Of a DNA stretch of 48,558 nucleotides, positions 8,429-48,558 are shown one piece after another. The stretch's first letter is position 1, and each line of letters opens with the position of its first letter. Source of the DNA: a virus; the IMG/VR virus record IMGVR_UViG_3300020564_000007, positions 1-48,558 of that record. The stretch is one strand, 5' to 3'. A program made the position numbers and the translations under genes. The notes beneath the pieces were generated by a model, which was not told where the DNA came from, did no database searches, and was given only the letters and a program-made list of their open reading frames with translations.

Positions 8429-8429
8429 T

Positions 8430-8576
8430 ATGGAACTTACAAAAGAAGAAATTGAAGCATTAAAAGCTTATTTTGATGAAACTAATATTAACATTACTAG
8501 TCTTATTAAAAAAATAGGTTTAAAACAAGTTAAAGTTTTTGAATCTGTAATAGATAAGGTTTATAAACATGAATAA
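8430..8576 (+). CDS. Small 48-residue hypothetical protein
   Basis: ATG 8430 lies one base after the reductase stop and the frame runs to TAA 8576, overlapping the ThyX start by eight bases. It reads MELTKEEIEALKAYFDETN then INITSLIKKIGLKQ and ends YKHE: a small, helical, well-charged protein. The fit between two coupled genes makes it more likely real than chance. Function is unknown; the helical segments could form a small DNA-binding or adaptor fold. Confidence 0.6.
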   Translation: MELTKEEIEALKAYFDETNINITSLIKKIGLKQVKVFESVIDKVYKHE

Positions 8577-9195
8577 TACAGTAGAATTATTAGGATTCTA
8601 TGGCTCAGATGAGGTTATAGCTTGTTCAGCTTGGACAAGTACCTCAAGAGAACTATCAGAAGATAAGATTAAAAGAGTACCTGCTCTAATAGATATGTTG
8701 TGGAGCAATGGTCATGAGACACCATTTGAGAAGGCTACATTGCACTTCTTGGTTAATTGTGATATTGCTTCACACATACATCTATTAAAGCATAGGATGG
8801 CTTCTATTAATGCAGAATCAGCTAGATATAAAGAACTAAAGGAAGATAAGTTCTACTTACCTCAAGATTGGAATGGTACTTATTGGAATACCAGATTAGA
8901 AATGTTTACTAAAGAATCTAATGAATTATATCATAGATGTTTAGAAGAACTTACTCCTATTCTTGGTAGAAAGAGAGCTAAAGAGAGTGCTAGGTTTTTT
9001 AAAACTTATAATTCTCAAATACAAGCTGATGTTATGTTTAATATGAGAAGCTTTGCTAACTTTCTAAAACTTAGAAATAGTGAACATGCTCAAATTGAGA
9101 TTAGAGAAATTGCACAACAAATGTTAGACTTAGTTAAGTCTATTGAAGGAAACCCTTTTGAACAAACAATAAAATCAATAACTAATGGAAAATAA
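8569..9195 (+). CDS. thyX: FAD-dependent thymidylate synthase
   Basis: The ThyX signature is at 74-87 (KHRMASINAESARY), where the canonical motif is RHRxxSxNxxSxRY; the first Arg is Lys here. GHETPFEKATLHF (48-60) is the conserved flavin/substrate region. The 208-residue length is typical. The enzyme methylates dUMP to dTMP using methylene-tetrahydrofolate and FADH2. Its gene lies between the reductase and dUTPase, which supplies dUMP, so the operon can make dTTP from ribonucleotides. Translation overlaps both neighbours. Confidence 0.93.
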   Translation: MNNTVELLGFYGSDEVIACSAWTSTSRELSEDKIKRVPALIDMLWSNGHETPFEKATLHFLVNCDIASHIHLLKHRMASINAESARYKELKEDKFYLPQDWNGTYWNTRLEMFTKESNELYHRCLEELTPILGRKRAKESARFFKTYNSQIQADVMFNMRSFANFLKLRNSEHAQIEIREIAQQMLDLVKSIEGNPFEQTIKSITNGK

Positions 9196-14973: not shown

Positions 14974-17900
14974 TTAAATACATTCATTTATCATTTCTTG
15001 AATAATGTTGTTATCATATTTTAAAACATATGCTTGAAAATCATAGAAAGTAGTAACATTATATTTAGGATTATTAGCAATTTTAAATTTTACACTATTA
15101 AATATTGCTGCTAATTCTGTTTTACTCATTCCTTTATAATTAATAGATCCAGTAGGTTTTGTTTGAGTTGATGGTGTACTTGTAGGAGTTTTTAAAACTA
15201 CATTTGACATTTTCTTTGTACTACTTACAATTTCATCTATAGTTTCTTTACTTAATGGATTTTCACCATAAGCTTGTCTAAAGAAATCTATACTTTGTAT
15301 ATTCATTTTTTTAAAGTGATTTTCATTTAATCTATAAAACTCAGTATCATATTCTGAAGGACTCAATTGACTTGAAGAACTAGGTAAAGGTTGACTTTTT
15401 TCACCACTACTAGATTTAGATTCATCAAAATATTTATCAATTAATTCTATTAGTTTAAGTAATTTATTATTATTACTTTGAACTAATCCATTTTTAAAAT
15501 CTGAAACAACAAGTGAATTTACAAAACTATTTATTTCACTATTAATATTTAATTTAAAGAAATAACTTTTAAATTCTGAAAGTCTACTTTCAGTAAAAGG
15601 ATAATCTTTAATACCATATTCTTGTTTACCTGTAAATTTATCTTTTAGTATTACATTTTTATCTACTTGATATATTGCAACTAATGATTTAAGATTACTA
15701 ATTATTTCATCTTTATTAAATTTTACAGAATAATCTTCAAAACTATCTGGAGTTAAACCAAATGTCATATCTGGTTCTTCTGTTAACAATCCTTCAGCAG
15801 CAGCTTCTAATTGATTTATAGGAAATGCATAAGGTAATACATTTTTATTAGCAATTCTTGATACTTCTTCATATTCAGCAGATATACCTGCATCTGGATT
15901 ATTGCTTACAGTATTTCCTCTAACCATATTAACACGCTTTAAAACTTTATAATTAGATTTATTATCACTTTTAAAGTTAAATACTATAAACTCTGGGTAA
16001 ATCATGTTACTGTAAATACCATCTTTTGTTTTAACATATTCCATGGAAAACAATCTAGTAGATATTAAAGCTTCTTTATTCAATTTTGTTAAAGGAGATC
16101 TATATAATTCCATCAAATCCTTTTTATCAATTTCTTTAGACTTAGGAAATATACTTACATAAAGTTTAGCTTTAGTAGTATCTGTAGCTCTTTCATATTT
16201 AAGAGGAAGTATTTCTCTTATTTTACTATCTTCTGCAAATAAAGAGTCAAATAATTTTTCAACAGATTCTTTATCAGGATTTAATTTAAGTTCATTAGCA
16301 TAAGACAAAATTTCTTGTGCAATTTCAGATTTAGAATTATCAAAATATGCTTTTTCTTCAGGAGTCATATTATCAATAAAGTTCTTAAAAGCATTTTTAA
16401 TTTGCTTAAACACAATTACTGAATTCTGAGATTTTAGGTTAAATGTATTATCAATATGTCTAGCAAAATATTCTACAAACTCTTTATTGAGTTCTTCTTC
16501 TGCAATACCAAATGTGTCTTTAAAATCTTTATTAGTACCTTGTAAAGCTTTCATTGACTCATCTAAAGAGTCAGATATAACTTTAAACAAACTAGGTGGT
16601 AAAAAAGAAATATAACTTTCATTTCTATACATACCTAAGTCTTTGTTTAACATTTGACCAATTAAAAGTTGTCTAAACTCTGTAATTTGATTAGCAACTA
16701 GTTGATCAGATGTAAATAAGTTTGGTTGCATAAGTAACTCAAAGTCTGCAGTTACACTAGCTTGCTCTTCAGGAGATAATCTAATAAAGCTGTTTGATAT
16801 AACATAGTATATATCTCTATTTTTAAAACCTGCTTTACTACTATCTGTATAAGATATCTTTTTAAAGTCAAGCATTTGAATAAACTTGTTACTTGCTAGT
16901 TCAGGATATAAATCACCATTTTTAAAATCAATTAGCAATTTTATTAGCATTGGAAAATCACTTTTTGATTCAACTGCAATACTATTTAAATCACCTTTTA
17001 AGATAGGGTATTTATGTTTTAATGCTTTATCTGCATAAAAAGCATTTACTAGTTTAATCAGTTTATTTAAGTTAGATACATTATTAAAGTAATAAGGTTT
17101 AGTAACTGCTTGTATTTTCTTAAATAATCTTTTAGCACCTGGTGTTCTTGATACAAAGAATTTAGATGAATCATTTAAAAACATTGCAAATGCTTTTATT
17201 TGATTAGTTAAAAATGGATCAGAATCTATTACTTGTTTATAATCAATAGGATACTTTTCATTAGGTAATCCATTCATTCTAACATTATTAACATAATCTA
17301 TATATTCTGGAGTGTACTCTAACACATAATTATCATAAGACTGTCCATTATTTTTTTGTACAATCTGAAGACCAATGTTTTCAAGTTTGTTAATTATATT
17401 TTCTGTTTCAGCAAGTTCTGTACTTAAACCTTTAATTAAAGATACAAATCCTGAAAACCCTGTACTTTGTCTAGAAATATCAGAATAAGTTAAAAATTCA
17501 TTTAATGCTTTATAGTTTACATAGTTAAACAAATCTTCTTTCATTCCAGTAAGAGTAACAGCATCTTCAACTGTAGTTCCATTCTTTAATAGTTCAGAAA
17601 ACTTTTTAGCTTTAATTAATAGTTCATCTGTTATATCACCAACTTCTTTTTCATTCTCAGACACATTAGCTTTAGTTTTATAACTTTGTAATATACTTTG
17701 AATAGAACCATCTTCATTTTCAGATTTTTCTTTCTTATTTTGTATTGGAGATTGTTTAGCTGCAGCATCTGCTGCAAAAGCTAATACTGATTCTTGTAAG
17801 TGTATCAATGAAACATACTCAAATGGTTTCTTAGCCATTACCATGAAGATAAATGCACCTTGTGTTTGTGGTGTAATATTAAATCTAATAGCATCTTGAA

Positions 17901-20900
17901 ACTTAGCATTATCTACAGCCATTGATATGATTGTAGATATTAAGTCATTAATACGTTGACTATCTTCATTTGTATAACTATCTAATCTAATACCTAAATT
18001 TTCAATTTCAACATTAGCATTCTTTAAATATTGGAATACAATATTTCCAATAGCAGCAATACCAATATTTTGTTTACCAATAGCATTGGCATGTGACATG
18101 GTTACAGTAGCTGTTGGTGTAGAATACTCTGATACATTTACAGGATCTATAAAATCACCACTTTCATAATACTTTTTAATAAACTCTTCAGCTGCATCTC
18201 TTGATGCTGGTGTTGTAGCTCTTTTATTATTACCAGTATTTTTATCACCATAGTTAACTAAAGCTTTTTCTATATCTAATAGTACATTATTTATTTCTCC
18301 TATAGTAATAGGTTCTACATTAGATATACTACCTTGATCACTACTATAATTATTATAATTACTTTCAACTATATCACCTGCAGTTTTTTGACCTTTGATT
18401 CTATAGTTTTTAAACTCTTCTGCAGTTGTAGGATAACCTTTAATACTTAAAGCTCTTTTTTCTAAGTTTTTAATTATTTTTTTCTTTTCAAGCAATAATG
18501 TTTTCTTAGCAGCAATTAAATTAAGCAATGTTTTTTTATGTGAGTCTTGTAACTCTTTAGCATTTTTAAGTATTTCAGTGTATACATCTGCTGTAGAATC
18601 ATCAATAATATTATCAAGAGCTTGTTCTGACTCTCTAGATATCTTTCTTTGTACTGAAAGATCATTCTTTATATTATTGATTGTAACAGTAACATCTTCA
18701 ATTGCTTTCTTATTGTCTAAATAGTTTGTATCTGTTTCTTTTAAATCAGATAATAATGGTTTAATTTCTTTTGAGTTAATTTTCTCTTCATAGAAATCAT
18801 AGAAAGCATATTTTAATCTTTTTTCAGGATCTTTATTCTTTAAATATGAACCAAATACATTAATATGTTCATTACCTTGAGCATCTGTATTAGTATAGTA
18901 ATCAACAGTTCTAACAAACTCAGAGTCAATATCAAAGTCAGCACCTGACATAATTAAAAGTTCATAAGGCATTACAAGCTTATTACCTTTTTCTGCTGGA
19001 AAGATATCTACTACTTTAAGTTTAACCATTGAATGCTTATCTTGTGTAGGGATACGAATACCTAACATTTCACAAAACTCTTCACTTAAATACTGACCTT
19101 CTGTTATGTTCATCATTTGTGCAGTCTGCATAGAGATTTTACACTCTGCATACCAAACACCATCTTCACCTTGCTTTAACTCAAGTCTTCTTGTATTTAC
19201 ATTTTTATATGCCTCTGGGTCTTTTAAGAACTCTCTTCTAGTAATTACTTTACCTTTACTATCTATCATAACATCTTCACCAAAGTCAGAAGCTAGTGTA
19301 AACTTGTGACCTGATACTTTTTGAGAGAATGTTCCTTTACCAACAAATGCTAAAAACATACTTTCATACATAGAAAGTAATCTAGGTAAATTAAGATTAT
19401 AGTTTGGTTTACTTCCAACACCATCAAATAACTCAAGTAATGTAGGATCTCCACCTTGTTCAAGAATAGATTGTCTAAAGCTTTTTAACATTGCTTTATG
19501 GTCAGGATTACCATTTTTGTCAAATATTGCTTTTCTCATATTACCATATGATTCAAACAATCTATCTCCTAATAGTTTTCTATAAAGTTTTCTTAATGTA
19601 CCTACAGTATGTTTTCTATTACCAATATTAACTTCATAACCATCATCATGTTCTGAATATATTAACTGCATTAACTGAGTACCGTGAATAATTTCTTCCT
19701 TCATGTTATCAGTAACAACTTGTTCTCTAAAGAACTCACTGTTAATTTTCATAGGAATTAATTCATCATCCCAATTAGTTACATTCTTTTTAGTTGTTTT
19801 AATAGCAGACTTAAAGAAAGTAACATCTACCTGTTGTCTTTCCATCTTATTAAGCAACTCATGTCTTTTAATAGCACTTGGAATAGGTTTATAGAAATCT
19901 TGAATTTCCATTTGCTTTTTATGATACTCAAGATGATCTGTTATTTTTAACAACTCATCAATAGCTTTTTCAAAAGCAGGAATATCTTTTTTATCAACAT
20001 AACTAACTTCACTTCTTGTAATAACATCTGTAGATGTTTTACCATATACAAAAGCATTAAACATAGAAGTCTTTCTAGGATTCATTAGTGCACCATACTC
20101 TTCAAGTATACCTCTTTCTCTAGCACTAATTTCTTTCATCATTCTAATCTTTCTATAGATTTTATCTATTTCTGGATTAGACTTAGCAAATGTTTTTAAA
20201 TAGTTATTGTAATACCATTCTATAGTACCATAACTTTGAGCATTAGTTCTTTCTTCACCTTCCTTTAATTTACCATTAGATGGGTTAACATAATCAAAAA
20301 GCTCATCATTTAAAATAGCAAAGGTTACATCTCCAAAACCTAATGAAGGTCCTGCAGCATTAGGTCCTGCATATCTCTTAGTCAAGTCAACAGCATCTTT
20401 AAGACCTACACTTAGATTACCAAAGATTAAATTATTTACAGTAGCTGCATTAATCCAATTGTTTATAAAGAACTCTTTCATCTTAGTTTCATCTAAGTTT
20501 CTATTACCATCTTTATAAAATGCAGGTAATATTTGAGATTCATATTTATTATCAGCAGTTGGTTTTATAATTGCTGTTTCACTAGATGAAAGTTCTTTTA
20601 TAAAGTTTTGATATGCATTTTCAAATGCTACTTCTACTATACTATTAAAATCTAAAGAATCTGATTCATTAGTTACAGCAGCTTTAATTATATCATTATA
20701 GATAGGTAATCCTTTTAAAAATTGAAACTCAATTAGATTTAATCCTCTAAATTGAGAAACCACTTTCATAAAATTAGGATCATTAGTATCTTTTAATATA
20801 TCAAGTGTTTCTTTTTTTGTTAAACTTTTACCATCAACTTTAACACCTTTAAGAATATTAAATCCTTCAATACTACCATCATCATTTAACAGGTCTCTAT

Positions 20901-23900
20901 ATACAGCTTGTATAGATGATAGTTCTCCTTTAAGATAGCTTGTTAAAAACTCTTTACCTAAATCAGATAAGTTATTTTTATTATCTAAGAACTTTCTTTT
21001 GAACATTGTAAATGCCCATTGAGTATCTTTACCTTCATTTTGAAATGCAATTAAAGGATACTTTTCATAAGTTTTATCACCAATCTTAACTTCTTTAACT
21101 AAACTCATTTCTGTTTTAGCAAATAAGTTTAACATCATTAAGAACTTACCTCTTTTATCAAGAGCAGCATATGCAGATGCTTTACTACCTTTATATGATT
21201 CTACTTGACCTGTTTCACTGATTGCTTGTTGTTTAAGTCCATCTAATGTAAATGGTAATATGTTTTGTAACTGTGATTCTCTAATTTCAGAGTTACTTGC
21301 TTTTAGTATAGGATTAAAATATAAAGTTCTAAAGAAGTATTCTATTTGTTGATCATTCAAAAGATCAACTACATATAGTTTATTATCTATTAGAAAATCT
21401 TTAAACAATTTAACACCTTCTTCAAAAGTACTAGCATCAACAGCATTAAATAGTTTGTTTGGATTGTTTCTTAACTTTAAGAATAAGCTTGTAATATAGT
21501 TAGGATATAAGTGAATGTAAACCATTTCACCTTCCACATTTCTAATAGTAGATGCTGAAACAGATTCATCAAACATAGAGTTACCACTTGCTAAATCATT
21601 TAATCTACCTTTAGCACCTAAAGCATCTTCAACAGAATCATCTATTTGAACTGCATCAGTATTTAACTTTTGTATTTCACTCTTATTTGTAAAAGGACTA
21701 CCTTCATTTACTGTAGAGTTAATAAGTCCTTTTGTAATTTCAGCATTAATAAATTCTACATCATTATAAGATTCTAGAATTTTATCTAAACTTTTAAATT
21801 GAGAATCTCCTGTTTGATTAAGTACATCAGACATATCTCTGTTTTCTTTCAATAGTTTATACAATGATAATTGTACATACTTGTCAGAAAGTGAAATACC
21901 TAATAAACCAAACTGTTCCTTTATAAAACTAACTTTTTCATTAAAGTTATTAAATATATATTGTATGTTATCTTGTTTAACAGCAGCATCTTTAGAATTA
22001 AAAGCATCAAATGTTAAATTTAGACTTGTTAGTATTTTACTAACTTCTTCCTTTTTATTGTCAAGATTTAATCTCTTCCAGTTATTATACCAAATTTCTC
22101 TTTGTATTTTTCTAGAGTCATTAACATTAGATATAAATGTTTTAGATTGTCCTGTTTCTTGGTCAAATATATTTACAATAGATTCTGATTTATGTTTAGT
22201 AAATGAAGCTACAAACAAACAAAACTTATCTGACTTAGCTAACATCTCTATTGGAAACTGATCTTGATTAATAATATCAGAACCAATTCCATTGTAATAT
22301 TTAATATTTAATTCTAAGCATATATCCTTAACTAATCTTTCATAGAAAGCACTTAACATTGGTTGACCTTCCTTAATGTAATGTAGTTTCTTCAAGAGAT
22401 CTTCTCTTTCAGTATTAACTAACATTCTTTCAATAGAGTTATATAGTTTAATACCATTAACATAGTTTCTAAATCTAGGATCATTTTCAAGTATTTCTTT
22501 AGACAAACCTAGGTTATATATATCAAGTGGCATTTCTGTCTCCATGATATATTTCTTCATTTCCTTACTTGTAGATTCAATACCACCAACTCTTTGATTT
22601 GGCTTTTGTGCTAAATCAGTTGTTGTATTATCTTCCATCTCTTCACCATTCACATCATAATCATCAAACTTAATTGTGTCTATGTGTTTTCTTACTTCTG
22701 AAATAATATCTTTAATATTCTTTTCTATAGTAGGTTCAAACTGTGCTCCTCCTGGACTATTCCAAAAAACACTATCATTTTCTAAATCTTTATATAAAGA
22801 TCTAATTACATTTAGTAATTCATTCTGATGTGCTTCTTGTAAAGAAGGATTAGTTGCATACTGATTATTTTCAAATTCATTATTTATAACATCTATTAAT
22901 ATAGATATGTTATTATCAACTACTTGTTGAATCATACTTCTAATATCAGTATCATACACAACACCAACATCTCTCATTCTATCTCTTGATAGTGCACTTA
23001 CTTGACTAATTATATTAGCACCTGTTCTAGATTGATGGAATCTTTCAACTATATTATTGTTTTCAGTTGCAGCAGGAAACTTAAGAGCACTAAATAAACT
23101 TAAATTATTTGTAGGAGCATTTACAACTTTAGCATTTTTAAATGCACCATTTCTAATAGAATTAAATAAAGCATCAATATTAGCTACATCATCTGGATTA
23201 CCTTTCTTAAAGAAGTTAACAATTCTTTTTAATAGGTCAAATATTTTTTCTAAGAATGATTTTTCCTTAGGTGTCTTTCTAGTACCATTCATTAGGTCCA
23301 TGAAATCATCTGCTAACTTTTCTTCATAATAAAGATTAGTAAGCTCTTTTAAACTAAGGTTAGTATATTCATCACTTAATGATCTTAATTCATCTAACTG
23401 CTCAGAAGTAGGTTTATCATAACGATCTCTAGCTTCTGATATTACTTTAGATTGTTGTGCTGAAGTTAAAAGCATTCTAAATACAGCATGAAATGCTTCA
23501 TGGTATTCAACACCTTTAGGTACATCTTTACCTAAATAGATTACTGCATTTCTAAATAAACCATAAGTAAATGCATTATTAGCTAATCCAGTAACTAACT
23601 CTTCAATTGCTTTTACTCCTATCTCTGGAGGTAGAATATCTGCTAGTCTCTTAGTAACTTCATTTATATCAATAGGTCTAGTTTCTTGAGCATCTTTTCT
23701 AGCAAAGAATGGATTACCTCCAGGTGGTGGTGCTTGTGATGATTGATTCTTTTTACCATAATTATTTATAGCTGAATTATTAGCATTACTACCAGCAGGA
23801 GGTTGTGGAGGTTGAGGAGGTTGTGGTGGAGGAGCTTGTTGAGTAGAAGTTACAGTACCTGTTTTAATTTCTTCTATTCTCTTTTCAATTTGTTCAGATG

Positions 23901-26900
23901 CAGTTTTATAATTACTCTCTTTGTATTTTTTATTAGAACTATCTAAAGCATTATATGCTTTATCTAATTCACTTTTTAATTGTCTAAGTAATGTCTCACT
24001 ATTTTTAGCTTTGTTATACTGAGTTCCCCAATTATTCATTAATGTTTGGAAATCTGTATTTTGCCATACTTGATTTTTACCTTGAAATAAATAAGTTATA
24101 GTAGGATTTACAGCAGGAGTGAATGAATTAATATTATCTACAAATTCTTCTTTAGGAAAGTTTTTATTAATTCTTGTAATGTTAGGAAGAACTATTTCTC
24201 CCTTATCATTAGTTACTGCAAAGTTGTATGCTAATTTATAAGCATCATTTTTAACATTAGCAATACCACCTGCATTATTTACTTCTTTTATTGCATCAGG
24301 TAATGTATCTTTTAAATAAGTATTAACAGCTTTAATTAAATCAAAGTTATCTTTAATAGCTTTGTTTTTATAACTAATCATTAAATTACCATTAACGTCT
24401 TTAACAAAGCTCCAACCAAAGTTTCTTTTATTAATAGTTTTACCTGTTTTACTTTTAAAAGTATTTCTAGATTCATCAGTAGATATTAGTTCTACTGTTA
24501 AATCTTTACCTGCACCCATATCTAATGCAAGAACTAAAGATGAACCCTTAATTGGGTTAGTTGAGTTTTCAGGAGTTCCTGTTGTTTTAATATATATATT
24601 TTTACCTACAGCATCACTTACTAAAAAGAAATTTTCTTTAGTATCCCAACCAGGTACTCCAGCTAAATTAGTACCATCAGCTTTTGATTTAGCAATGTTT
24701 TCAAGTACTTCTTCATTAAGTCTTGTTAAATTATCATTGACAAAATTAATTACATTTTCTGTAGCCTGTACTTCAGGTGGATTTAATCTAATACCTCTAG
24801 GAGCACCATCTGTTTCATATATAATCTTATAAGCACCACTAAATTTATTTAAAGCATATTGTCTAGATTCCCAATATTTAGTAATCTTTTCTTTAACTTC
24901 TAAAGGAATTTGTTCTAATGTTTTAGTTGTTGGATTATATATATAGTAATCAAGTACATTAGCAAGTTTAGATTGTACAAGTAATCCTTTACCAGTTCCA
25001 CCAAATAAACTTAAGTCTGTTAATAAAGTACCATCATCTAAGTGACTCCAGTCAGGAAGTTGATTATCATTACGAACATCTTCTATTTTACCAAATAACT
25101 GTTTTATATTAAATAACTTTTGTACATCAGCATTAGAAAACTCACGTTTACCATTTCTAATTTCTTCTTTTATTTCATTAAAAGATAGCATGGTACTTCT
25201 ATAATGATCTATAAAAAACTTACCATCATCACTAGGTATTTTTTTACCATCAGTATCTAGTTTTACAAATTCAGGATTTAATAATTCTAAATGTTCTACT
25301 GATTCATTAAAATCTACATAGTTACCATTCTCATCTTTAAATCTAAATCTATTAGGATCTAATATATTACCAATCCAAACATCATCAAAAACTACTTGAA
25401 TACCAAATTGTTCTACACCATCTCCAACTAAACCTTTTTGTAATTTAACTTTATCATCAAAAGTCTGATTAAAAACTGTTTCTAAATCTACAAGCTTACC
25501 TCCTTCAGGATATTCTACTATTCTTAATTCAGCTTTATTTGCTATAGCATCAGCAGAATTTTGCATTAAAGCTTTTTTACCATCTGGTTCAATATAATCT
25601 TGAATCATAGAAACAAGTTTATTAGGACCAAATATTCTTGGTACACTAGATAAACTAGTATCATTAGTATCTTTCTTATAGTCTTTTAAGAAGCTATTAA
25701 ATTCTTGAGCTACTTGTTTTAAGTAATCTCCTTTTAAAAATTTATCAACTTCAGCTACTTGTTCAGGAGTTAAACTTGATTTAATTATATCAAAGAATTT
25801 TTTAATGTTTTCTATTTCCTGAAGACCCTGTTCTGCATAAGCTTGTTTTTGATCAGGACCAACATCAGATCTAAATATTCCTAATGCTATATTTAACTTT
25901 TCACATTGATCTTCAATAAGTTTTTTAAGATCAACATCTTGTACATCAGTTAAAGCTTCTTTTAATGCTACACCTGCTTTTTGTATATTTCTTTTAGCAA
26001 ATGCTATCCCAAAAGTTTTTTGTGCAGCATTCTTAAGAATTTGTTCTTGTACTTCAAATACTCTTTGAGAAGGATCTTCTAATCTAGACTTTTCAAATAT
26101 TGCAAGACTTTGTGCATCAAGATGTTCTTTTAACAAATCTCCTCTTAATTCAGCAACAGAATCTTCTAATTCTTGAAGACCTTTTCTTGTAAGTAATCTA
26201 TCAAATAATTTTTTATATTCTTGTTCTTGATTAAGGATTTTACCAATATCATCTAACTTCTGTTGTATATCAGCTTTCTCAATAGGAGTTACATTTTCCA
26301 TATCTTCTGATATAGAGTTTAACTCATCAACATGCATTAAAGTTTCTGATTTAAACTTCTGAAAGTTTGTAGCAAGTTTAGCATCAGGAGATACAGTCTT
26401 TAATTCTTTATTATAACTCTTCTCAAGAAGTTTATCTAATTGAGTTTCAAGTTTAGTAATCTGATCTACAAGAGCTTGTTCACTTTGTGGTTCTACTCTT
26501 GAATTTTTTAATTGGTCAATAGCTGATTTAAGTTCTCTAATCTCTTTAACATTAGCTAACTTTAAAACTTCACCTGCTCTTTCTGATACAGTTTTATTTA
26601 GGATTTTAGAAATATCACTAAACATTTGTTTCTTTCTATTACCTAAATTCTGATTAGCATATACTGTGTATGCAATTTGATCTAACACATCAACATCACC
26701 ACCTCTATAAATACCAGCAGCTTGATCTCTTGCACTCTCAGTTAGTTTAACTTGTGCTTTAAGATTTGATGTTAATTCAGATTTTCTTTGTAAGAAAGCT
26801 TCATCTGTTAAATTCTCATAACCATATAATTCTTGAAACTGTTGCTTATTAAGTTTATTTAAATCTGCAAGATGTTTTTCTTCAACTTCAGAAAGTCTAC

Positions 26901-28635
26901 CCATCTTAGACATCATATTTAAATAATCAAAAAGCTGTTTAGCTTCTTCTGATTTATAATTATAAGTGTCATTTTTAGCAGCAAACTCTTTCTTTTTAAC
27001 TTCAGAATTAGTTGTAAGAGCAAAGTGTTTAGCATAATTATTCATTATACCTTCACTATTACTAGTATAATAATCTACTAAATCTAATAGTTTATTCATT
27101 TCAGGTGATTTACCTGGATCTCTAAATGCTTCTCTAATACCACCTTGCCATCCTTTAATTCTATTACCACTTGGTCCAGGTCCACCTACAGAACCTAATA
27201 TAGCACCAATAAATATTTCTGACCAGCTTTCAGCATTGTTACCAAATGCTTTACTTAAACCTTCTATACCTGATGCAATAATATCTTCTGATTCTGAAGT
27301 ATCAAATCTATCTTGAAGATAATCTTCTCCTGCATAACTAATTGCTTTCTGCAAACCTTCTTGACCACCTTCAAATACAGCACCTTCTAAACCTCTAACA
27401 GCACCTCTTGCAAACTTAGCACCTTTAGTTAATGTGTGATATTTAGCAATGGTATCCATTGCCTTAATTTCATCTATACTCTTACCAAGAGATTTAGATG
27501 CTCTTAGTAATTGTTTATTAGATAGTGTAGATGTTTGAACCATTTCATCAAATAACTTCTTTTCAGGATTAGATGCTGTACCTAGCATTTTACCAAGTTT
27601 AGGTGAAAATACTCCTGGTAATGTTTTAGCTTGTGTAAGTCCTGTAACAATTAAGTTAATTCCAAATACAGAATTACCTACTTTATATATATCATCCATT
27701 GCAGCAGCTAACTCATAATCAGAAGGTTCTCTACCATTCTCATCAACATAGTCTGCAATATATTTTTGTTTAGCATCATCAACAAAAGACATAGCTTCTA
27801 CTGCAGATTCATAACCTGCACTAGTAATCATTTGTCTAGCTAATGTAGCACCTTCATACATAGTTTGTTTAAATGCTGATTTACCCATTGTAGTAGCAGC
27901 ACTTGCTACAACATCATCTGTTAAACCAACTGTTTCATCTACAGCTTTTATAGCTTTAGTTAAGTTTTTTAACTTTCCTGCAGTTGCCATAGCTGCAAAA
28001 GCACCTTCAGTTAATACTGCACCTACAACAAATGAAGCACCTTGTAAGAAATCATTAGACCAAAAGTTAGCAGTACCCATTCTTCTAAGAGCACTGTAAT
28101 CTTCTTCCTCTCTTGTAATATAATGAGGTAAAGCTTCATCCATTGCTTTGTTAGCATTGTCTAATGCTCTATAAAAATCATTATTATATATTTCATGAAA
28201 TGATGTATTATCTCCTGCCCACAAATCTTCTATTTGTCCTGCTAAATTATATAATACATTTGGTAACATACCTACACCACCTATTACAGCTGTTGCAGAT
28301 TTACCTATAAGTTTAGCTACACCATTACCCCATTTATCAGATATAGATTGTCTTTCTGCTCTATCATCTTCATAATCTCTAAATGTACTTGGAACAATAC
28401 CTCTTGAAGTATAAGTTTCAAGTTCTTCAGGTGACATTGACATTTGATACTGAATACCTGAATCAGGAACTAAAGAGGGGTCTGTTCCTAAATTTTTACT
28501 TATATTTTGATAATATGATTTTCCAACATTAATAGCATCCTCACTTGATTGATTAGTACTACTTTGTGTTTTTAATTTTATATATTCATCAATTGTAATT
28601 TTACCTTCTAATAAAAGTTTTTCTATATCATCCAT
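14974..28635 (-). CDS. Giant multidomain RNA polymerase (single-chain, YonO/phi14:2-like)
   Basis: A 4,553-residue protein. The catalytic signature is DFDID at 3233-3237 (DNA 18925-18939), in the context MPYELLIMSGADFDIDSEFV. RIPTQDKHSMVKLKVVDIFP precedes it and FFKSAIKTTKKNVTNW lies near 2938. This is the two-barrel layout known from phi14:2 gp66 and YonO, where one chain holds both barrels and the DxDxD metal ligands. The N-terminal half has hydrophobic stretches (about 95-460) and long coiled coils. A Pro-rich linker (about 1590-1640) is followed by a zincin motif HEAFH (1712-1716). The protein is probably packaged and injected to transcribe early genes, as shown for phi14:2. It is about twice the length of phi14:2 gp66, so extra modules are present. 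Confidence 0.88.
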   Translation of the reverse strand: MDDIEKLLLEGKITIDEYIKLKTQSSTNQSSEDAINVGKSYYQNISKNLGTDPSLVPDSGIQYQMSMSPEELETYTSRGIVPSTFRDYEDDRAERQSISDKWGNGVAKLIGKSATAVIGGVGMLPNVLYNLAGQIEDLWAGDNTSFHEIYNNDFYRALDNANKAMDEALPHYITREEEDYSALRRMGTANFWSNDFLQGASFVVGAVLTEGAFAAMATAGKLKNLTKAIKAVDETVGLTDDVVASAATTMGKSAFKQTMYEGATLARQMITSAGYESAVEAMSFVDDAKQKYIADYVDENGREPSDYELAAAMDDIYKVGNSVFGINLIVTGLTQAKTLPGVFSPKLGKMLGTASNPEKKLFDEMVQTSTLSNKQLLRASKSLGKSIDEIKAMDTIAKYHTLTKGAKFARGAVRGLEGAVFEGGQEGLQKAISYAGEDYLQDRFDTSESEDIIASGIEGLSKAFGNNAESWSEIFIGAILGSVGGPGPSGNRIKGWQGGIREAFRDPGKSPEMNKLLDLVDYYTSNSEGIMNNYAKHFALTTNSEVKKKEFAAKNDTYNYKSEEAKQLFDYLNMMSKMGRLSEVEEKHLADLNKLNKQQFQELYGYENLTDEAFLQRKSELTSNLKAQVKLTESARDQAAGIYRGGDVDVLDQIAYTVYANQNLGNRKKQMFSDISKILNKTVSERAGEVLKLANVKEIRELKSAIDQLKNSRVEPQSEQALVDQITKLETQLDKLLEKSYNKELKTVSPDAKLATNFQKFKSETLMHVDELNSISEDMENVTPIEKADIQQKLDDIGKILNQEQEYKKLFDRLLTRKGLQELEDSVAELRGDLLKEHLDAQSLAIFEKSRLEDPSQRVFEVQEQILKNAAQKTFGIAFAKRNIQKAGVALKEALTDVQDVDLKKLIEDQCEKLNIALGIFRSDVGPDQKQAYAEQGLQEIENIKKFFDIIKSSLTPEQVAEVDKFLKGDYLKQVAQEFNSFLKDYKKDTNDTSLSSVPRIFGPNKLVSMIQDYIEPDGKKALMQNSADAIANKAELRIVEYPEGGKLVDLETVFNQTFDDKVKLQKGLVGDGVEQFGIQVVFDDVWIGNILDPNRFRFKDENGNYVDFNESVEHLELLNPEFVKLDTDGKKIPSDDGKFFIDHYRSTMLSFNEIKEEIRNGKREFSNADVQKLFNIKQLFGKIEDVRNDNQLPDWSHLDDGTLLTDLSLFGGTGKGLLVQSKLANVLDYYIYNPTTKTLEQIPLEVKEKITKYWESRQYALNKFSGAYKIIYETDGAPRGIRLNPPEVQATENVINFVNDNLTRLNEEVLENIAKSKADGTNLAGVPGWDTKENFFLVSDAVGKNIYIKTTGTPENSTNPIKGSSLVLALDMGAGKDLTVELISTDESRNTFKSKTGKTINKRNFGWSFVKDVNGNLMISYKNKAIKDNFDLIKAVNTYLKDTLPDAIKEVNNAGGIANVKNDAYKLAYNFAVTNDKGEIVLPNITRINKNFPKEEFVDNINSFTPAVNPTITYLFQGKNQVWQNTDFQTLMNNWGTQYNKAKNSETLLRQLKSELDKAYNALDSSNKKYKESNYKTASEQIEKRIEEIKTGTVTSTQQAPPPQPPQPPQPPAGSNANNSAINNYGKKNQSSQAPPPGGNPFFARKDAQETRPIDINEVTKRLADILPPEIGVKAIEELVTGLANNAFTYGLFRNAVIYLGKDVPKGVEYHEAFHAVFRMLLTSAQQSKVISEARDRYDKPTSEQLDELRSLSDEYTNLSLKELTNLYYEEKLADDFMDLMNGTRKTPKEKSFLEKIFDLLKRIVNFFKKGNPDDVANIDALFNSIRNGAFKNAKVVNAPTNNLSLFSALKFPAATENNNIVERFHQSRTGANIISQVSALSRDRMRDVGVVYDTDIRSMIQQVVDNNISILIDVINNEFENNQYATNPSLQEAHQNELLNVIRSLYKDLENDSVFWNSPGGAQFEPTIEKNIKDIISEVRKHIDTIKFDDYDVNGEEMEDNTTTDLAQKPNQRVGGIESTSKEMKKYIMETEMPLDIYNLGLSKEILENDPRFRNYVNGIKLYNSIERMLVNTEREDLLKKLHYIKEGQPMLSAFYERLVKDICLELNIKYYNGIGSDIINQDQFPIEMLAKSDKFCLFVASFTKHKSESIVNIFDQETGQSKTFISNVNDSRKIQREIWYNNWKRLNLDNKKEEVSKILTSLNLTFDAFNSKDAAVKQDNIQYIFNNFNEKVSFIKEQFGLLGISLSDKYVQLSLYKLLKENRDMSDVLNQTGDSQFKSLDKILESYNDVEFINAEITKGLINSTVNEGSPFTNKSEIQKLNTDAVQIDDSVEDALGAKGRLNDLASGNSMFDESVSASTIRNVEGEMVYIHLYPNYITSLFLKLRNNPNKLFNAVDASTFEEGVKLFKDFLIDNKLYVVDLLNDQQIEYFFRTLYFNPILKASNSEIRESQLQNILPFTLDGLKQQAISETGQVESYKGSKASAYAALDKRGKFLMMLNLFAKTEMSLVKEVKIGDKTYEKYPLIAFQNEGKDTQWAFTMFKRKFLDNKNNLSDLGKEFLTSYLKGELSSIQAVYRDLLNDDGSIEGFNILKGVKVDGKSLTKKETLDILKDTNDPNFMKVVSQFRGLNLIEFQFLKGLPIYNDIIKAAVTNESDSLDFNSIVEVAFENAYQNFIKELSSSETAIIKPTADNKYESQILPAFYKDGNRNLDETKMKEFFINNWINAATVNNLIFGNLSVGLKDAVDLTKRYAGPNAAGPSLGFGDVTFAILNDELFDYVNPSNGKLKEGEERTNAQSYGTIEWYYNNYLKTFAKSNPEIDKIYRKIRMMKEISARERGILEEYGALMNPRKTSMFNAFVYGKTSTDVITRSEVSYVDKKDIPAFEKAIDELLKITDHLEYHKKQMEIQDFYKPIPSAIKRHELLNKMERQQVDVTFFKSAIKTTKKNVTNWDDELIPMKINSEFFREQVVTDNMKEEIIHGTQLMQLIYSEHDDGYEVNIGNRKHTVGTLRKLYRKLLGDRLFESYGNMRKAIFDKNGNPDHKAMLKSFRQSILEQGGDPTLLELFDGVGSKPNYNLNLPRLLSMYESMFLAFVGKGTFSQKVSGHKFTLASDFGEDVMIDSKGKVITRREFLKDPEAYKNVNTRRLELKQGEDGVWYAECKISMQTAQMMNITEGQYLSEEFCEMLGIRIPTQDKHSMVKLKVVDIFPAEKGNKLVMPYELLIMSGADFDIDSEFVRTVDYYTNTDAQGNEHINVFGSYLKNKDPEKRLKYAFYDFYEEKINSKEIKPLLSDLKETDTNYLDNKKAIEDVTVTINNIKNDLSVQRKISRESEQALDNIIDDSTADVYTEILKNAKELQDSHKKTLLNLIAAKKTLLLEKKKIIKNLEKRALSIKGYPTTAEEFKNYRIKGQKTAGDIVESNYNNYSSDQGSISNVEPITIGEINNVLLDIEKALVNYGDKNTGNNKRATTPASRDAAEEFIKKYYESGDFIDPVNVSEYSTPTATVTMSHANAIGKQNIGIAAIGNIVFQYLKNANVEIENLGIRLDSYTNEDSQRINDLISTIISMAVDNAKFQDAIRFNITPQTQGAFIFMVMAKKPFEYVSLIHLQESVLAFAADAAAKQSPIQNKKEKSENEDGSIQSILQSYKTKANVSENEKEVGDITDELLIKAKKFSELLKNGTTVEDAVTLTGMKEDLFNYVNYKALNEFLTYSDISRQSTGFSGFVSLIKGLSTELAETENIINKLENIGLQIVQKNNGQSYDNYVLEYTPEYIDYVNNVRMNGLPNEKYPIDYKQVIDSDPFLTNQIKAFAMFLNDSSKFFVSRTPGAKRLFKKIQAVTKPYYFNNVSNLNKLIKLVNAFYADKALKHKYPILKGDLNSIAVESKSDFPMLIKLLIDFKNGDLYPELASNKFIQMLDFKKISYTDSSKAGFKNRDIYYVISNSFIRLSPEEQASVTADFELLMQPNLFTSDQLVANQITEFRQLLIGQMLNKDLGMYRNESYISFLPPSLFKVISDSLDESMKALQGTNKDFKDTFGIAEEELNKEFVEYFARHIDNTFNLKSQNSVIVFKQIKNAFKNFIDNMTPEEKAYFDNSKSEIAQEILSYANELKLNPDKESVEKLFDSLFAEDSKIREILPLKYERATDTTKAKLYVSIFPKSKEIDKKDLMELYRSPLTKLNKEALISTRLFSMEYVKTKDGIYSNMIYPEFIVFNFKSDNKSNYKVLKRVNMVRGNTVSNNPDAGISAEYEEVSRIANKNVLPYAFPINQLEAAAEGLLTEEPDMTFGLTPDSFEDYSVKFNKDEIISNLKSLVAIYQVDKNVILKDKFTGKQEYGIKDYPFTESRLSEFKSYFFKLNINSEINSFVNSLVVSDFKNGLVQSNNNKLLKLIELIDKYFDESKSSSGEKSQPLPSSSSQLSPSEYDTEFYRLNENHFKKMNIQSIDFFRQAYGENPLSKETIDEIVSSTKKMSNVVLKTPTSTPSTQTKPTGSINYKGMSKTELAAIFNSVKFKIANNPKYNVTTFYDFQAYVLKYDNNIIQEMINECI

Positions 28636-44957: not shown

Positions 44958-45706
44958 TCTTCCTCATCAGGTTTAGATTTACCAACACCTGTACCAGCAT
45001 TAGTAAAGTTTACATTTATTGAAGGAATAGCATCATCTTTGCTATTATTATTCTCATCTTTATAAAGTGTTCTTTTAGTTTTAGCTTCTTCCAGTACATT
45101 AGGTTTAACTAATGATTGCCACATCCAAGGATTTAAAGGATATTCTGAATCCCATGAAAAACATGATTGACCATCACAATCAGTAAATCTTGCAGCATCT
45201 AATGGATCTACAAATACTCCCTGAACATTTACTGTTTCAATTAATAAGTCTTTCATGCTTTTATTAGCAATTATATACAAATATCCATTTTTTAAAAATG
45301 CACCTAATGATTTAGTATTATATCTACCATTACCAAAATATATAGCATGGTCATAATCCATAAATATAATAGGTATAGACATTATATTTATACTACTTAC
45401 TCTTGTAATTGCTTTATCAGAATGAAACTCAACAGGATTAGGTAGTTTTTGAACAGACCTTAATATTTTACAATCTGTAGTAATTTCACAACATGTACTA
45501 TTATCTACAAGTTCTAATTCTACACATTTTAAATCTTGAATAAGTTTAGGGTCAATACTTTTATTTTTTTTATTTTCCCTTCTTATCCAAAGTTCTCTGT
45601 TTTGATTTATCAAATCTACTATTAACCTTTTATCTAATGAAGTATCATCTACTGATATTTGTAGTGCTTCATAAATTTGATAAATCATTTTGTTTAATGT
45701 AGTCAT
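44954..45706 (-). CDS. Tail connector / ring protein (P22 gp4-like)
   Basis: The 250-residue protein opens TTLNKMIYQIYEALQISVDD and then DLINQNRELWIRRENKKNK, a pattern seen in N-terminal helical domains of podovirus connector proteins. VELELVDNSTCCEITTDCKI is a beta segment with a Cys cluster. The C-terminal tail is low-complexity and acidic (KDENNNSKDDAIPS, KSKPDEEE). It overlaps the spanin-like gene upstream and the basic protein downstream by a few bases, so the group is translated together. Family assignment is by pattern and position. Confidence 0.55.
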   Translation of the reverse strand: MTTLNKMIYQIYEALQISVDDTSLDKRLIVDLINQNRELWIRRENKKNKSIDPKLIQDLKCVELELVDNSTCCEITTDCKILRSVQKLPNPVEFHSDKAITRVSSINIMSIPIIFMDYDHAIYFGNGRYNTKSLGAFLKNGYLYIIANKSMKDLLIETVNVQGVFVDPLDAARFTDCDGQSCFSWDSEYPLNPWMWQSLVKPNVLEEAKTKRTLYKDENNNSKDDAIPSINVNFTNAGTGVGKSKPDEEE

Positions 45707-46305
45707 TTTAACTGTATATTTAAACCTAATATTGTTGATCTATTTAACGGTGAATAACCTATTGTAAACAATAGATCATTTTTATGCAAAGATAGTGAAG
45801 GATAGATATCAAAATTCACCTGTTTACTTAAATTGGCTTGAGCACCTAAAAATATTTTTAAAGAGTTATCTTTCACTTTTACAGTATCAAACTTAGTATT
45901 TGTTATTGTTGTAGTTATATATTTAGGAAATAATGGTTTATAATAGAATCCCCAATCTAATAATTCACCATTACTAATAGCATATAGTGTACCTTCAAGT
46001 AAAGAATCTTCAAACTCTTTAACATACTTATTTACAGTATCATTAGTTACAGTATCATAATAAGTAATTGGTTGAGGTACTGATACTCTAATAGTATCAT
46101 ATGTAGTTCTTTGGAAAGTAATAGTATCTACTACAATCTTTTCTTTATAAGAATAGACAGACTCTTTTTCTAAATTAGAAAAATTAACATAAAATATTGA
46201 GCTTAATAATAATAAGCATCCTATAATAATAAGAAAAAACCTTCTTTCAGTAGAAAGTTTTTCTTTTAATCTAATTGTTTCAGAAGAATATTCTATAGTT
46301 TCCAC
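45703..46305 (-). CDS. Membrane-anchored spanin-like protein
   Basis: A 200-residue protein with one N-terminal membrane segment at 22-41 (RFFLIIIGCLLLLSSIFYVN) preceded by a charged cytoplasmic tail, and a long periplasmic part with repeated Tyr-Asp-Thr (TTYDTIRV, TYYDTVTNDTV). This resembles the inner-membrane proteins next to endolysin genes in Bacteroidota phages. It overlaps the endolysin gene by 13 bases, the usual lysis-cassette arrangement. The C terminus (TIGYSPLNRSTILGLNIQLK) is beta-like. Inner-membrane spanin is the likeliest role, unproven; no separate holin was identified. Confidence 0.5.
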   Translation of the reverse strand: METIEYSSETIRLKEKLSTERRFFLIIIGCLLLLSSIFYVNFSNLEKESVYSYKEKIVVDTITFQRTTYDTIRVSVPQPITYYDTVTNDTVNKYVKEFEDSLLEGTLYAISNGELLDWGFYYKPLFPKYITTTITNTKFDTVKVKDNSLKIFLGAQANLSKQVNFDIYPSLSLHKNDLLFTIGYSPLNRSTILGLNIQLK

Positions 46306-46805
46306 TCTTTATACATTGTTTTTTTACCTAACTTATATGCTCTTAATACTTGCATTCTGTTTCTTGTTTTAGAATATGATATATGTATCCAATCAGGATT
46401 AAAATCTGTACCAAATTCTAATATACATTGATCAAATTTAAAATCAGGATCTGCAATTAATTCTTTAATAGCAGCTACTATAAGGTTATTATGTTCAACA
46501 CCTTTCTTTACATATATAATATCAGCTGCTTCACCATATACATGCTGACTAGATTGTACTACTTTACCATTAACAATACTATAAGCACCACCTATTTTAG
46601 CATTTAATCTAGGACATCTATAACCTGATGTTACACTAATACTGTCTTTAATTATATCTCTAATAGGTTGTAAAACATTATTAGTTAATAGTTTTAAATT
46701 ATCAATGACCTCTTGTGAAGGTTTAAATTGTTCATCATATCCCCATCTTAAAGCTGATGGAGATTTTAACATTTCTTGCAATGTGAAATTTTTACTTAAA
46801 TTCAT
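46293..46805 (-). CDS. M15-family peptidase endolysin
   Basis: The 170-residue protein has the full M15A pattern: VTSGYRCPRLNAKIGG (58-73), SSQHVYGEAADI (zinc ligands H88 and D95), and DWIHISY (third ligand H141) with E130 as probable catalytic base. These enzymes cleave peptide cross-links in peptidoglycan. There is no signal peptide, so release would depend on a holin. It ends with TAG (46295-46293), the only TAG stop among the genes listed. The neighbours are a spanin-like gene and secreted proteins, completing a lysis cassette. Confidence 0.88.
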   Translation of the reverse strand: MNLSKNFTLQEMLKSPSALRWGYDEQFKPSQEVIDNLKLLTNNVLQPIRDIIKDSISVTSGYRCPRLNAKIGGAYSIVNGKVVQSSQHVYGEAADIIYVKKGVEHNNLIVAAIKELIADPDFKFDQCILEFGTDFNPDWIHISYSKTRNRMQVLRAYKLGKKTMYKEWKL

Positions 46806-46811
46806 GTCTAA

Positions 46812-47402
46812 TTATATTAAATGTATTTTTATATTTTTTAAATAAAAGATGCCTTTAACATCTTTATATATTACTCTCCCTGGATACAATCCACTAAACG
46901 CTAATTGATCTTTATAATATCCATCCCAACCATTTTTAATATTATTTGACACAAACAATAATTCACCCCACCTATTCCATATTTCTAATTTATATTCATA
47001 AATGTTTACTCCATAACATTTAAAAATATCATTTATACCATCACCATTAGGAGAAAAAGAATTAGGTATATAAATTCTTGTTTCTAAACATTCAATAACT
47101 TCTACAATAAGATCTTTATATGCATTACATGATTCATTAATTGCTGATGTTGTAATTACAAATATTCCTATTTTATCATATTTAACTAATAAAGTATTAT
47201 TATTAACCTGATAATAAAGTGAAGGTTGTATATCTATATATTCTAATTTACCATCATTAATTTTAACAATGTAATTTTTAATAATAGCTTCATCACATAA
47301 CTGAAATTTTTGTTGTGCTTTTACATTAAGTACTGTAAATAAAAATAATGATCCTAATATTATTATTTCTTTTGCACAACTTATTACTTTTAAAAGTTTC
47401 AT
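46812..47402 (-). CDS. Secreted protein with T9SS type B sorting domain (CHU_C / gliding C-term)
   Basis: The 196-residue protein has a signal peptide (MKLLKVISCAKEIIILGSLF; cleavage likely after VKA at 29). A short middle part (30-109) has a few cysteines and no known motif. Residues 110-196 carry the gliding-motility C-terminal family signature: YIPNSFSPNGDGINDIF, YKLEIWNRWGELLF and NGWDGYY, ending SGLYPGRVIYK. In Bacteroidota this domain sends exported proteins through the type IX secretion system to the cell surface. A phage gene with it implies surface display or secretion during infection. It is coupled to the Ig-like secreted protein upstream (TGA T ATG). Role unknown. Confidence 0.85.
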   Translation of the reverse strand: MKLLKVISCAKEIIILGSLFLFTVLNVKAQQKFQLCDEAIIKNYIVKINDGKLEYIDIQPSLYYQVNNNTLLVKYDKIGIFVITTSAINESCNAYKDLIVEVIECLETRIYIPNSFSPNGDGINDIFKCYGVNIYEYKLEIWNRWGELLFVSNNIKNGWDGYYKDQLAFSGLYPGRVIYKDVKGIFYLKNIKIHLI

Positions 47403-47403
47403 A

Positions 47404-47961
47404 TCAGTTAGTTTGTAAGTTTATTGTTGGTAATGGATTAATTGTAATATTAATACTTCCTGTTGATAAACAACCATTAGCATCTGTATAACTCATATTT
47501 AAAGTATATGCTCCAGAATTATTAGGTGTAAATATATTACCTGCTATTGTACCACCATTTGTAGGTGTAAATATAGTTCCTGTAGGTTGACCATTAATTA
47601 TAACATTAGGCACATCAATACATTGAGTTATAGGTTGTGCAGTAAGTATTCCATTAGGTTGTACTATTATAGTACCTCTTTGATTAATTGTACAACCATT
47701 TAAAAGTTTAGTTATTGTAACATTATATGTGCCTGTATTTTCAAATAATACTTGTCCTTGAGTATTAGCACTTATGTTAGTAATAGTTTCACCATTATCT
47801 ATTGTAAAACTATATACTGCTGCAGGGTCTATTGGTGTATCACCAAAAACTAATGTAGATCCTACACATATTGTTCTATCTTTTGGGTTAGGTGTAGGAA
47901 TTTGTCCTATTAGTATTATTGCTGAAAATAACAAAAAGCATGTAAATAGATATTTTTTCAT
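47404..47961 (-). CDS. Secreted Ig/PKD-like repeat protein
   Basis: This 185-residue protein starts with a signal peptide (MKKYLFTCFLLFSAIILIGQ) followed by two Ig/PKD-like units of about 80 residues. The first has VYSFTIDNGETITNISANTQ and ends GCTINQRGTIIVQP. The second has GAYTLNMSYTDANGCLSTGS and ends INITINPLPT. The GC...I.V.P and GC...I.I.P endings are typical repeat closures in surface proteins of gliding Bacteroidota. Unlike those host proteins, it has no sorting domain of its own and stops after the second repeat (LQTN). The next gene, one base away, supplies a sorting domain on a separate signal-bearing protein. Confidence 0.75.
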   Translation of the reverse strand: MKKYLFTCFLLFSAIILIGQIPTPNPKDRTICVGSTLVFGDTPIDPAAVYSFTIDNGETITNISANTQGQVLFENTGTYNVTITKLLNGCTINQRGTIIVQPNGILTAQPITQCIDVPNVIINGQPTGTIFTPTNGGTIAGNIFTPNNSGAYTLNMSYTDANGCLSTGSINITINPLPTINLQTN

Positions 47962-47979: not shown

Positions 47980-48534
47980 TTATTGTTTGTCTGGTTTTAA
48001 TGCATTAATAAAATAGTGAGGATTATTTATTTTGTGATTAAAAGTATGATATGTTGTTAAATTAACTACTTGTATAGAATCAATAAGTTTAGACTTTAAT
48101 AGTTTAATTTGATTAGTAGTTAATACTGGAAATGCTGTTATTCTACAAGACATGTAAGGTTCTGTATAAACAGTAAATGAAGTATCTGATAAAATAAATT
48201 TAAATCCTGATCTTGCAGAACAATAATGACCATCTTTATATATAATTTTTAAAGTAGTAATTCTTTGATTTTTAAATCCTTCAAAATCTAATATTGGAAA
48301 AATCATAAATGTAGAATCTTCATTAACATAACCTTCAGGTTGACCTTCATTATGTAATGGAAAATCTTCATACTGTTGTATGTATTGACAATGTGTACAA
48401 GGTTTATCATTTATTTTAGTTTTAAATGATGAAAGTAAAAGTGCTGTTAAAACAAATAAACTTATAATTAAAGCTGTAATAGTTAGCCTTTTTTGATTAC
48501 TTAATTTTTCATTAATTAATGGTTTTAGTTTCAT
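47980..48534 (-). CDS. Membrane-anchored hypothetical protein
   Basis: A 184-residue protein with a short cytoplasmic N terminus and one membrane segment at about 17-37 (TITALIISLFVLTALLLSSF). A periplasmic domain follows, with a CxxC pair (PCTHCQYIQQ) and two more cysteines (HYCSARSGF and MSCRITAF). No lipobox is seen. The gene is the first of the leftward set visible in this window, 18 bases before the Ig-like gene. It could be a lysis or superinfection protein, or a redox-active surface protein, but I recognise no family. Confidence 0.6.
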   Translation of the reverse strand: MKLKPLINEKLSNQKRLTITALIISLFVLTALLLSSFKTKINDKPCTHCQYIQQYEDFPLHNEGQPEGYVNEDSTFMIFPILDFEGFKNQRITTLKIIYKDGHYCSARSGFKFILSDTSFTVYTEPYMSCRITAFPVLTTNQIKLLKSKLIDSIQVVNLTTYHTFNHKINNPHYFINALKPDKQ

Positions 48535-48558
48535 AGGTTTTTATTTTAATACTCTTAT

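Follow-up and report, generated by a model that had tools for sequence, protein, structure and literature searches.

Type B sorting domains and known cargo

The type B (CHU_C) domains of the type IX secretion system (T9SS) are secretion and targeting signals with motifs that are necessary for secretion, and their export requires a PorP/SprF-like shuttle (PMC12618676). A linked shuttle gene is usual but not strictly required, because orphan type B cargo without one exist, and cross-recognition between cargo/shuttle pairs occurs (PMC12618676); type B domains are held at the cell surface by PorP-like proteins (PMC9143113). Bacteroidota cargo such as SprB, PG1035 and Fjoh_3952 share a layout of signal peptide, Ig/PKD-like passenger and C-terminal type B domain. 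Gliding and T9SS proteins are also of importance in phage adsorption, with resistance arising when they are mutated (PMC13288928). Among phages, T9SS cargo has been described, as a unique case, in Cryophage, where the sorting domains are of type A and hijacking of the host system, perhaps for competition or superinfection, was suggested (Bellas et al. 2020; PMC7468147). Our searches of the open-licence literature turned up neither type B cargo in phages nor split, tail-bearing cargo.

The locus described here appears to share its layout with the Bacteroidota cargo and, like Cryophage, places T9SS sorting domains on phage proteins. Compared with the Bacteroidota proteins it is phage-encoded and short, its passenger is split over apparently coupled genes whose products carry a tail, and there is no shuttle gene alongside. 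Whereas the type A domains of Cryophage sit on enzymes and PA14 proteins of one phage, here type B domains are combined with Ig modules in a split cassette found in crAss-like and T4-like phages. A further relative is the Aureispira grappling-hook protein GhpA (PDB 9flp and others), a single bacterial chain of 5898 residues with a CHU_C end, in contrast to phage pieces of about 190 aa.

The CHU_C gene and its setting in a crAss-like phage

The window is the whole of record IMGVR_UViG_3300020564_000007 (positions 1-48558, 48,558 bases). Judged by its gene content, it is a fragment of a Crassvirales (crAss-like) genome, since profile searches of its proteins identify the muzzle and ring proteins that place a record in this order (PF25731 at 3.3e-135 for the muzzle, PF24228 at 2.3e-47 and PF25702 at 1.7e-37), together with Sak4-like, primase, exonuclease and further replication genes. 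Ring_1, Ring_2 and the muzzle share strand and record with the CHU_C gene, which lies at the end of a long minus-strand run (47980-48534, 47404-47961, 46812-47402, then an M15 peptidase endolysin, a spanin-like protein, Ring_2 and onward). Full-size relatives of this phage are 92-96 kb, and host contamination as the source of the gene was ruled out by the flanking phage genes and by the same gene order in those records. The product of 45703-46305, adjoining the endolysin, is possibly the single-chain spanin of this crAss lineage: it has a single membrane segment at its N-terminus, a lengthy part that looks periplasmic and a C-terminus rich in beta structure. Elsewhere in the window, a 4553-residue protein without a Pfam match (14974-28635) may be presumed to be the giant virion RNA polymerase known from crAss-like phages, and 6545-9195 carries a class II (B12-dependent) ribonucleotide reductase together with a ThyX-type thymidylate synthase. 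The features at the end of the run are as follows.

46812-47402, minus strand: 196-aa T9SS type B protein with predicted signal peptide, Ig/PKD-like region and CHU_C domain (profile matches, relatives)
46839-47072, minus strand: CHU_C/TIGR04131 type B sorting domain, residues 111-188 (PF13585 and TIGR04131 profiles)
47073-47315, minus strand: N-terminal beta-rich region, residues 30-110 (alignment; tblastn to long bacterial proteins)
47316-47402, minus strand: predicted signal peptide, residues 1-29, cleaved between NVKA and QQ (by inspection; same layout in relatives)
47400-47406, minus strand: gene junction TGA-T-ATG, a TAATG or TGATG overlap in relatives (sequence)
47404-47961, minus strand: probably coupled partner, 185 aa, with predicted signal peptide and two Ig/PKD-like domains but no CHU_C (kept beside CHU_C in relatives)
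47407-47436, minus strand: partner C-terminal tail PLPTINLQTN (PLPTGIIYTD in relatives, PVLSPIQHN in other phages)
47980-48534, minus strand: signal-anchor or secreted protein without the tail (homologue of the relatives' 155-aa gene)

A sequence-only reading of this DNA had proposed a signal peptide followed by a type B sorting domain in the C-terminal 87 residues. The domain itself is borne out by both profiles, PF13585 (E 1.2e-15, 57.8 bits, residues 111-173) and TIGR04131 (E 5.9e-13, 48.8 bits, profile positions 2-83 of 85), each above its curated cut-off (27 and 35 bits respectively), but its extent is 78 residues, 111-188, rather than 87. It ends in IHLI as against the usual VTLIR/K. The N-terminus (MKLLKVISCAKEIIILGSLFLFTVLNVKA, followed by QQ) is by inspection signal-peptide-like as proposed, and those of relatives likewise have a basic residue, then a hydrophobic run, then A/S-Q. 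For a phage to encode a type B signal of this significance, preceded by an apparent signal peptide, also agrees with the T9SS-positive host that had been deduced, which would be one of the Bacteroidota.

Residues 30-110 match the last domain ahead of CHU_C in long host proteins, and in a tblastn search residues 8-182 of the query match within one bacterial protein of 1306 aa (L154), covering both the N-terminal region and CHU_C. The family profile matches one solved relative, the CHU_C end of GhpA (1.7e-8). An AF2 model of a homologue (L136) has pLDDT of about 76-93 over most of CHU_C (77-93 in blocks from residue 121 onward) and poor values before it, and a structure search with the CHU_C model gave weak beta-sandwich matches, none with E <0.001. 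PHROGs has no family for the CHU_C protein, and Pfam, TIGR04131 and PHROGs profile searches identified no enzymatic domain in it.

The partner gene lies directly upstream, its stop overlapping or touching the CHU_C start, and the two genes are probably translationally coupled. Neither a single gene that has broken nor a frameshift fusion was accepted as an explanation of the pair: both reading frames begin with a signal peptide, and the frame step differs, with a +1 base gap in the window and an overlap in the relatives. AF2 predicts for a relative's partner (mean pLDDT 83) a signal helix, two beta-sandwiches and an unstructured tail, and the best whole-query fold matches of this model are the adhesin modules of GhpA (TM 0.47-0.55). 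The partner also has a weak match to a PHROG tail family (2.1e-5), which, with the location on the late structural strand and the frequency of Ig domains in virions, could suggest a decoration of the tail or capsid in which a CHU_C-like fold has a structural use. We consider such a virion component highly improbable, given that all of the pieces and their relatives have signal-peptide-like N-termini and that the domain passes the cut-offs of the T9SS models.

Relatives were recovered with Ring_1 as bait, giving 13 records at 71-84% identity, nine of which cover the CHU_C site; scans of viral contigs with the full-length CHU_C protein or with Ring_2 gave none, and tblastn against deposited phages returned three unannotated records for the CHU_C protein and none for the Ig partner. 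All nine contain the CHU_C gene in the same place, strand and gene order. The CHU_C proteins are changing fast, because they are 34-40% identical to that of the window as compared with 68-84% for the endolysin and Ring_1, and dN/dS values of 0.11-0.24 among non-identical pairs of relatives indicate purifying selection. Values for the Ig partner are 0.18-0.25, except for one near-identical pair at 0.64, which has too few differences for a verdict. Rapid change combined with constraint is consistent with a host-facing protein. Upstream, the relatives have a second lysozyme (PF00959) and a secreted protein of 300-450 aa. Between CHU_C and the endolysin, the window (46805-46812) is without two small membrane-protein genes that are present in the relatives (in L127 at 6797-7349), of 102 and 98 aa, one coiled-coil and one holin-like. 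The closest cultured relatives by Ring_1 are Flavobacterium psychrophilum phages, at about 25% identity; the 25 kb of Fpv1 that we examined contain no CHU_C, tail or partner families, and the same is true of three distant crAss loci (L138-L140).

Split cassettes, partner tails and fused homologues

Seen against its homologues, the CHU_C protein is one piece of a split multi-gene cassette, a point that the sequence-only reading had missed. The partners fall into three families: members of a have two Ig domains, those of b are about 197 aa long, and those of c span 300-458 aa with a jelly-roll-like start. In sequence, the a/Ig and c members from crAss-like relatives are distinct from their counterparts in T4-like phages. 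Family b is a third piece, seen in T4-like phages and absent from the window as far as position 48558; the window shows just the Ig partner and the CHU_C protein, and the end of the record at 48558 hides any b- or c-type partner. The product of 47980-48534 may or may not belong to the proposed complex.

Partners that lack CHU_C end in a short tail at their extreme C-terminus, in all three of these non-homologous families and also in unrelated phages. In the crAss lineage it reads GIIYTD, AAIYTN or PAIYTN, and elsewhere GPIIHN, SPILHN, GAITHD or NISHD; the consensus is PI-x-HN or IYT[ND], from which LQTN in the window is the most divergent. The tail is present in 23 of 47 signal-peptide reading frames no more than three genes away from a short CHU_C gene, in 0/28 secreted frames near long CHU_C genes, in 1/89 more distant secreted frames and in 10/1258 non-secreted frames, and its enrichment beside short CHU_C genes relative to other secreted frames has a Fisher p of about 5e-14, a statistic for a pattern that had partly been seen in the same data. 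For this reason a fresh test was run at the DNA level on 2.9 million viral contigs, blind to any CHU_C reference, with the pattern P-I-x-H-N, stop and an overlapping ATG-Lys. It returned 50 contigs (partly redundant and many of them close kin, with 32 distinct partner proteins), and 49 of the 50 show the gene pair, with a secreted Ig protein first and another secreted protein after it. CHU_C is present in 42/42 complete downstream frames; among the remaining frames two truncated ones match CHU_C, and five end too early to judge. The same DNA pattern had two matches in 299 Flavobacteriales genomes, neither of them a cassette.

Some phages have the pieces as one chain of 513-604 aa, in which a signal peptide is followed by b, Ig/a, Ig and CHU_C, the gene order of the split form. 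Family b matches the first 195 residues at 1e-44 to 1e-66, family a matches the middle in several, and the linkers retain, by eye, a tail-like motif (TPPISFSNDTLC, SPITYVTDSVC and SPIIYTTLLDIDLC). A fused protein of 636 aa with a family-a Ig part (5e-47) and CHU_C is also present in a very large uncultured phage (L002, 634.8 kb, LR745206.1). Family b occurs in 48/198 Bacteroidia genomes (about a quarter), mostly in long frames, and in 8/8 fetched regions these Bacteroidota homologues have b near the N-terminus and CHU_C at the C-terminal end of a single protein of 1258-1714 aa. In L294-L301, family b, conserved and without a Pfam match, opens long bacterial type B T9SS proteins. The arrangement resembles a bacterial surface adhesin that has been divided into pieces, each made on its own.

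Because the tail matches the inter-domain linkers of fused forms, it could be a leftover, and it may have no binding role. Each piece moreover has its own signal peptide, and the proteins could be independent, with the CHU_C protein alone reaching the surface, the Ig partner in the periplasm or outer membrane, and the tail a vestige of the ancestral linker; those without CHU_C might then stay in the periplasm. We regard this as rather unlikely in view of the retention of the tail at the C-terminus of three non-homologous families and in unrelated phages, the probable coupling of the genes, and the 42/42 association.

The domain that had been flagged as worth seeking in other phages does recur in unrelated ones: of 44 phage records, the crAss muzzle is encoded in 6 and the T4-type capsid protein Gp23 in 15, the others being unplaced. 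The M15 endolysin and spanin-like gene adjoin the pair in the window and its relatives, as would suit a lysis or release factor of a crAss-like lysis cassette. This lysis-side position is not general, and a lysis role is weakened, because the cassette sits in replication or tail-structure blocks of other phages, with no consistent linkage to lysis genes across carriers; it lies beside DNA polymerase, a DnaB-like helicase and an SbcD-like nuclease in L011, near thymidylate synthase in L035 and L088, and among genes resembling tail sheath and tube (by eye) in L265. With no enzymatic domain either, we think a lysis factor very improbable.

A PorP/SprF shuttle is encoded in 0/44 phage records, the window included, compared with 15-19 copies in each of three host genomes used as a positive control. 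As type B export needs such a shuttle and the tested phage records have none, the phage would have to borrow that of the host. Substrates brought without a shuttle also fit a T9SS decoy, the CHU_C protein itself being the effector that occupies the PorP/SprF-like shuttle or translocon and lowers the display of receptor adhesins, with the partners secondary. Such jamming is a serious rival, because there are phage proteins with nothing but a signal peptide and CHU_C. These bare proteins, without passenger or tail partner, are 107-108 aa in L017, L095, L104, L124 and L046 and 93 aa in L102, and are candidate T9SS decoys; the L095 record (148.8 kb) also encodes Gp23 and terminase, and that of L017 encodes terminase. 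In the lineage of the window, purifying selection has likewise conserved the N-terminal domain and the Ig partner, for which a pure decoy would have no need, and for this protein we judge the explanation improbable.

Predicted export route and biological meaning

The reading that we prefer, at about even odds (a probability near 0.5), is that the CHU_C protein is the carrier or anchor subunit of a T9SS type B surface complex that is split into several chains and uses host machinery. Its predicted route is Sec and then the host T9SS, because of the tested role of the domain in Flavobacterium johnsoniae (PMC12618676). Sec would export each piece to the periplasm, where the partner tail, formerly an inter-domain linker, would bind the CHU_C subunit, such that one sorting domain carries several chains; a PorP/SprF-like shuttle of the host would recognise the domain, and the host T9SS would move the complex to the cell surface and so change the display of infected cells. 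More tentative, and on balance doubtful, is the general form of this proposal, a piggy-back secretion in which the tail, [GST]PI-x-H-[ND] or IYT[ND], docks domain-less proteins on one co-encoded CHU_C subunit, exporting a multi-chain complex and anchoring it on the infected cell, a complex through which phages of at least two unrelated lineages would control the host surface.

The probable outcome is an infected cell whose surface the phage has redecorated or jammed. The most likely benefit would be to obstruct, or compete with, adhesins that the T9SS displays and that phages use as receptors, giving superinfection exclusion or progeny protection; cell-cell adhesion is the next most likely. 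Phage lipoproteins of the T5 Llp type mask receptors, and would act alike if the function here is receptor blocking, although the export route differs.

Within the open-licence papers searched, the split type B form appears to be new in phages, and piggy-back export would be new in kind, though unproven. The tail would serve as a sequence marker by which cassettes of this kind can be located and the T9SS-positive hosts of uncultured phages predicted. The type IX system also displays gliding adhesins linked to phage adsorption. If the preferred reading is correct, there may be a new rule for type IX export, with several chains per signal, and Bacteroidota phages, crAss-like phages included, would routinely send proteins to the surface of infected cells through the type IX system of the host, which would offer a concrete and testable way into the question of their control over re-infection.
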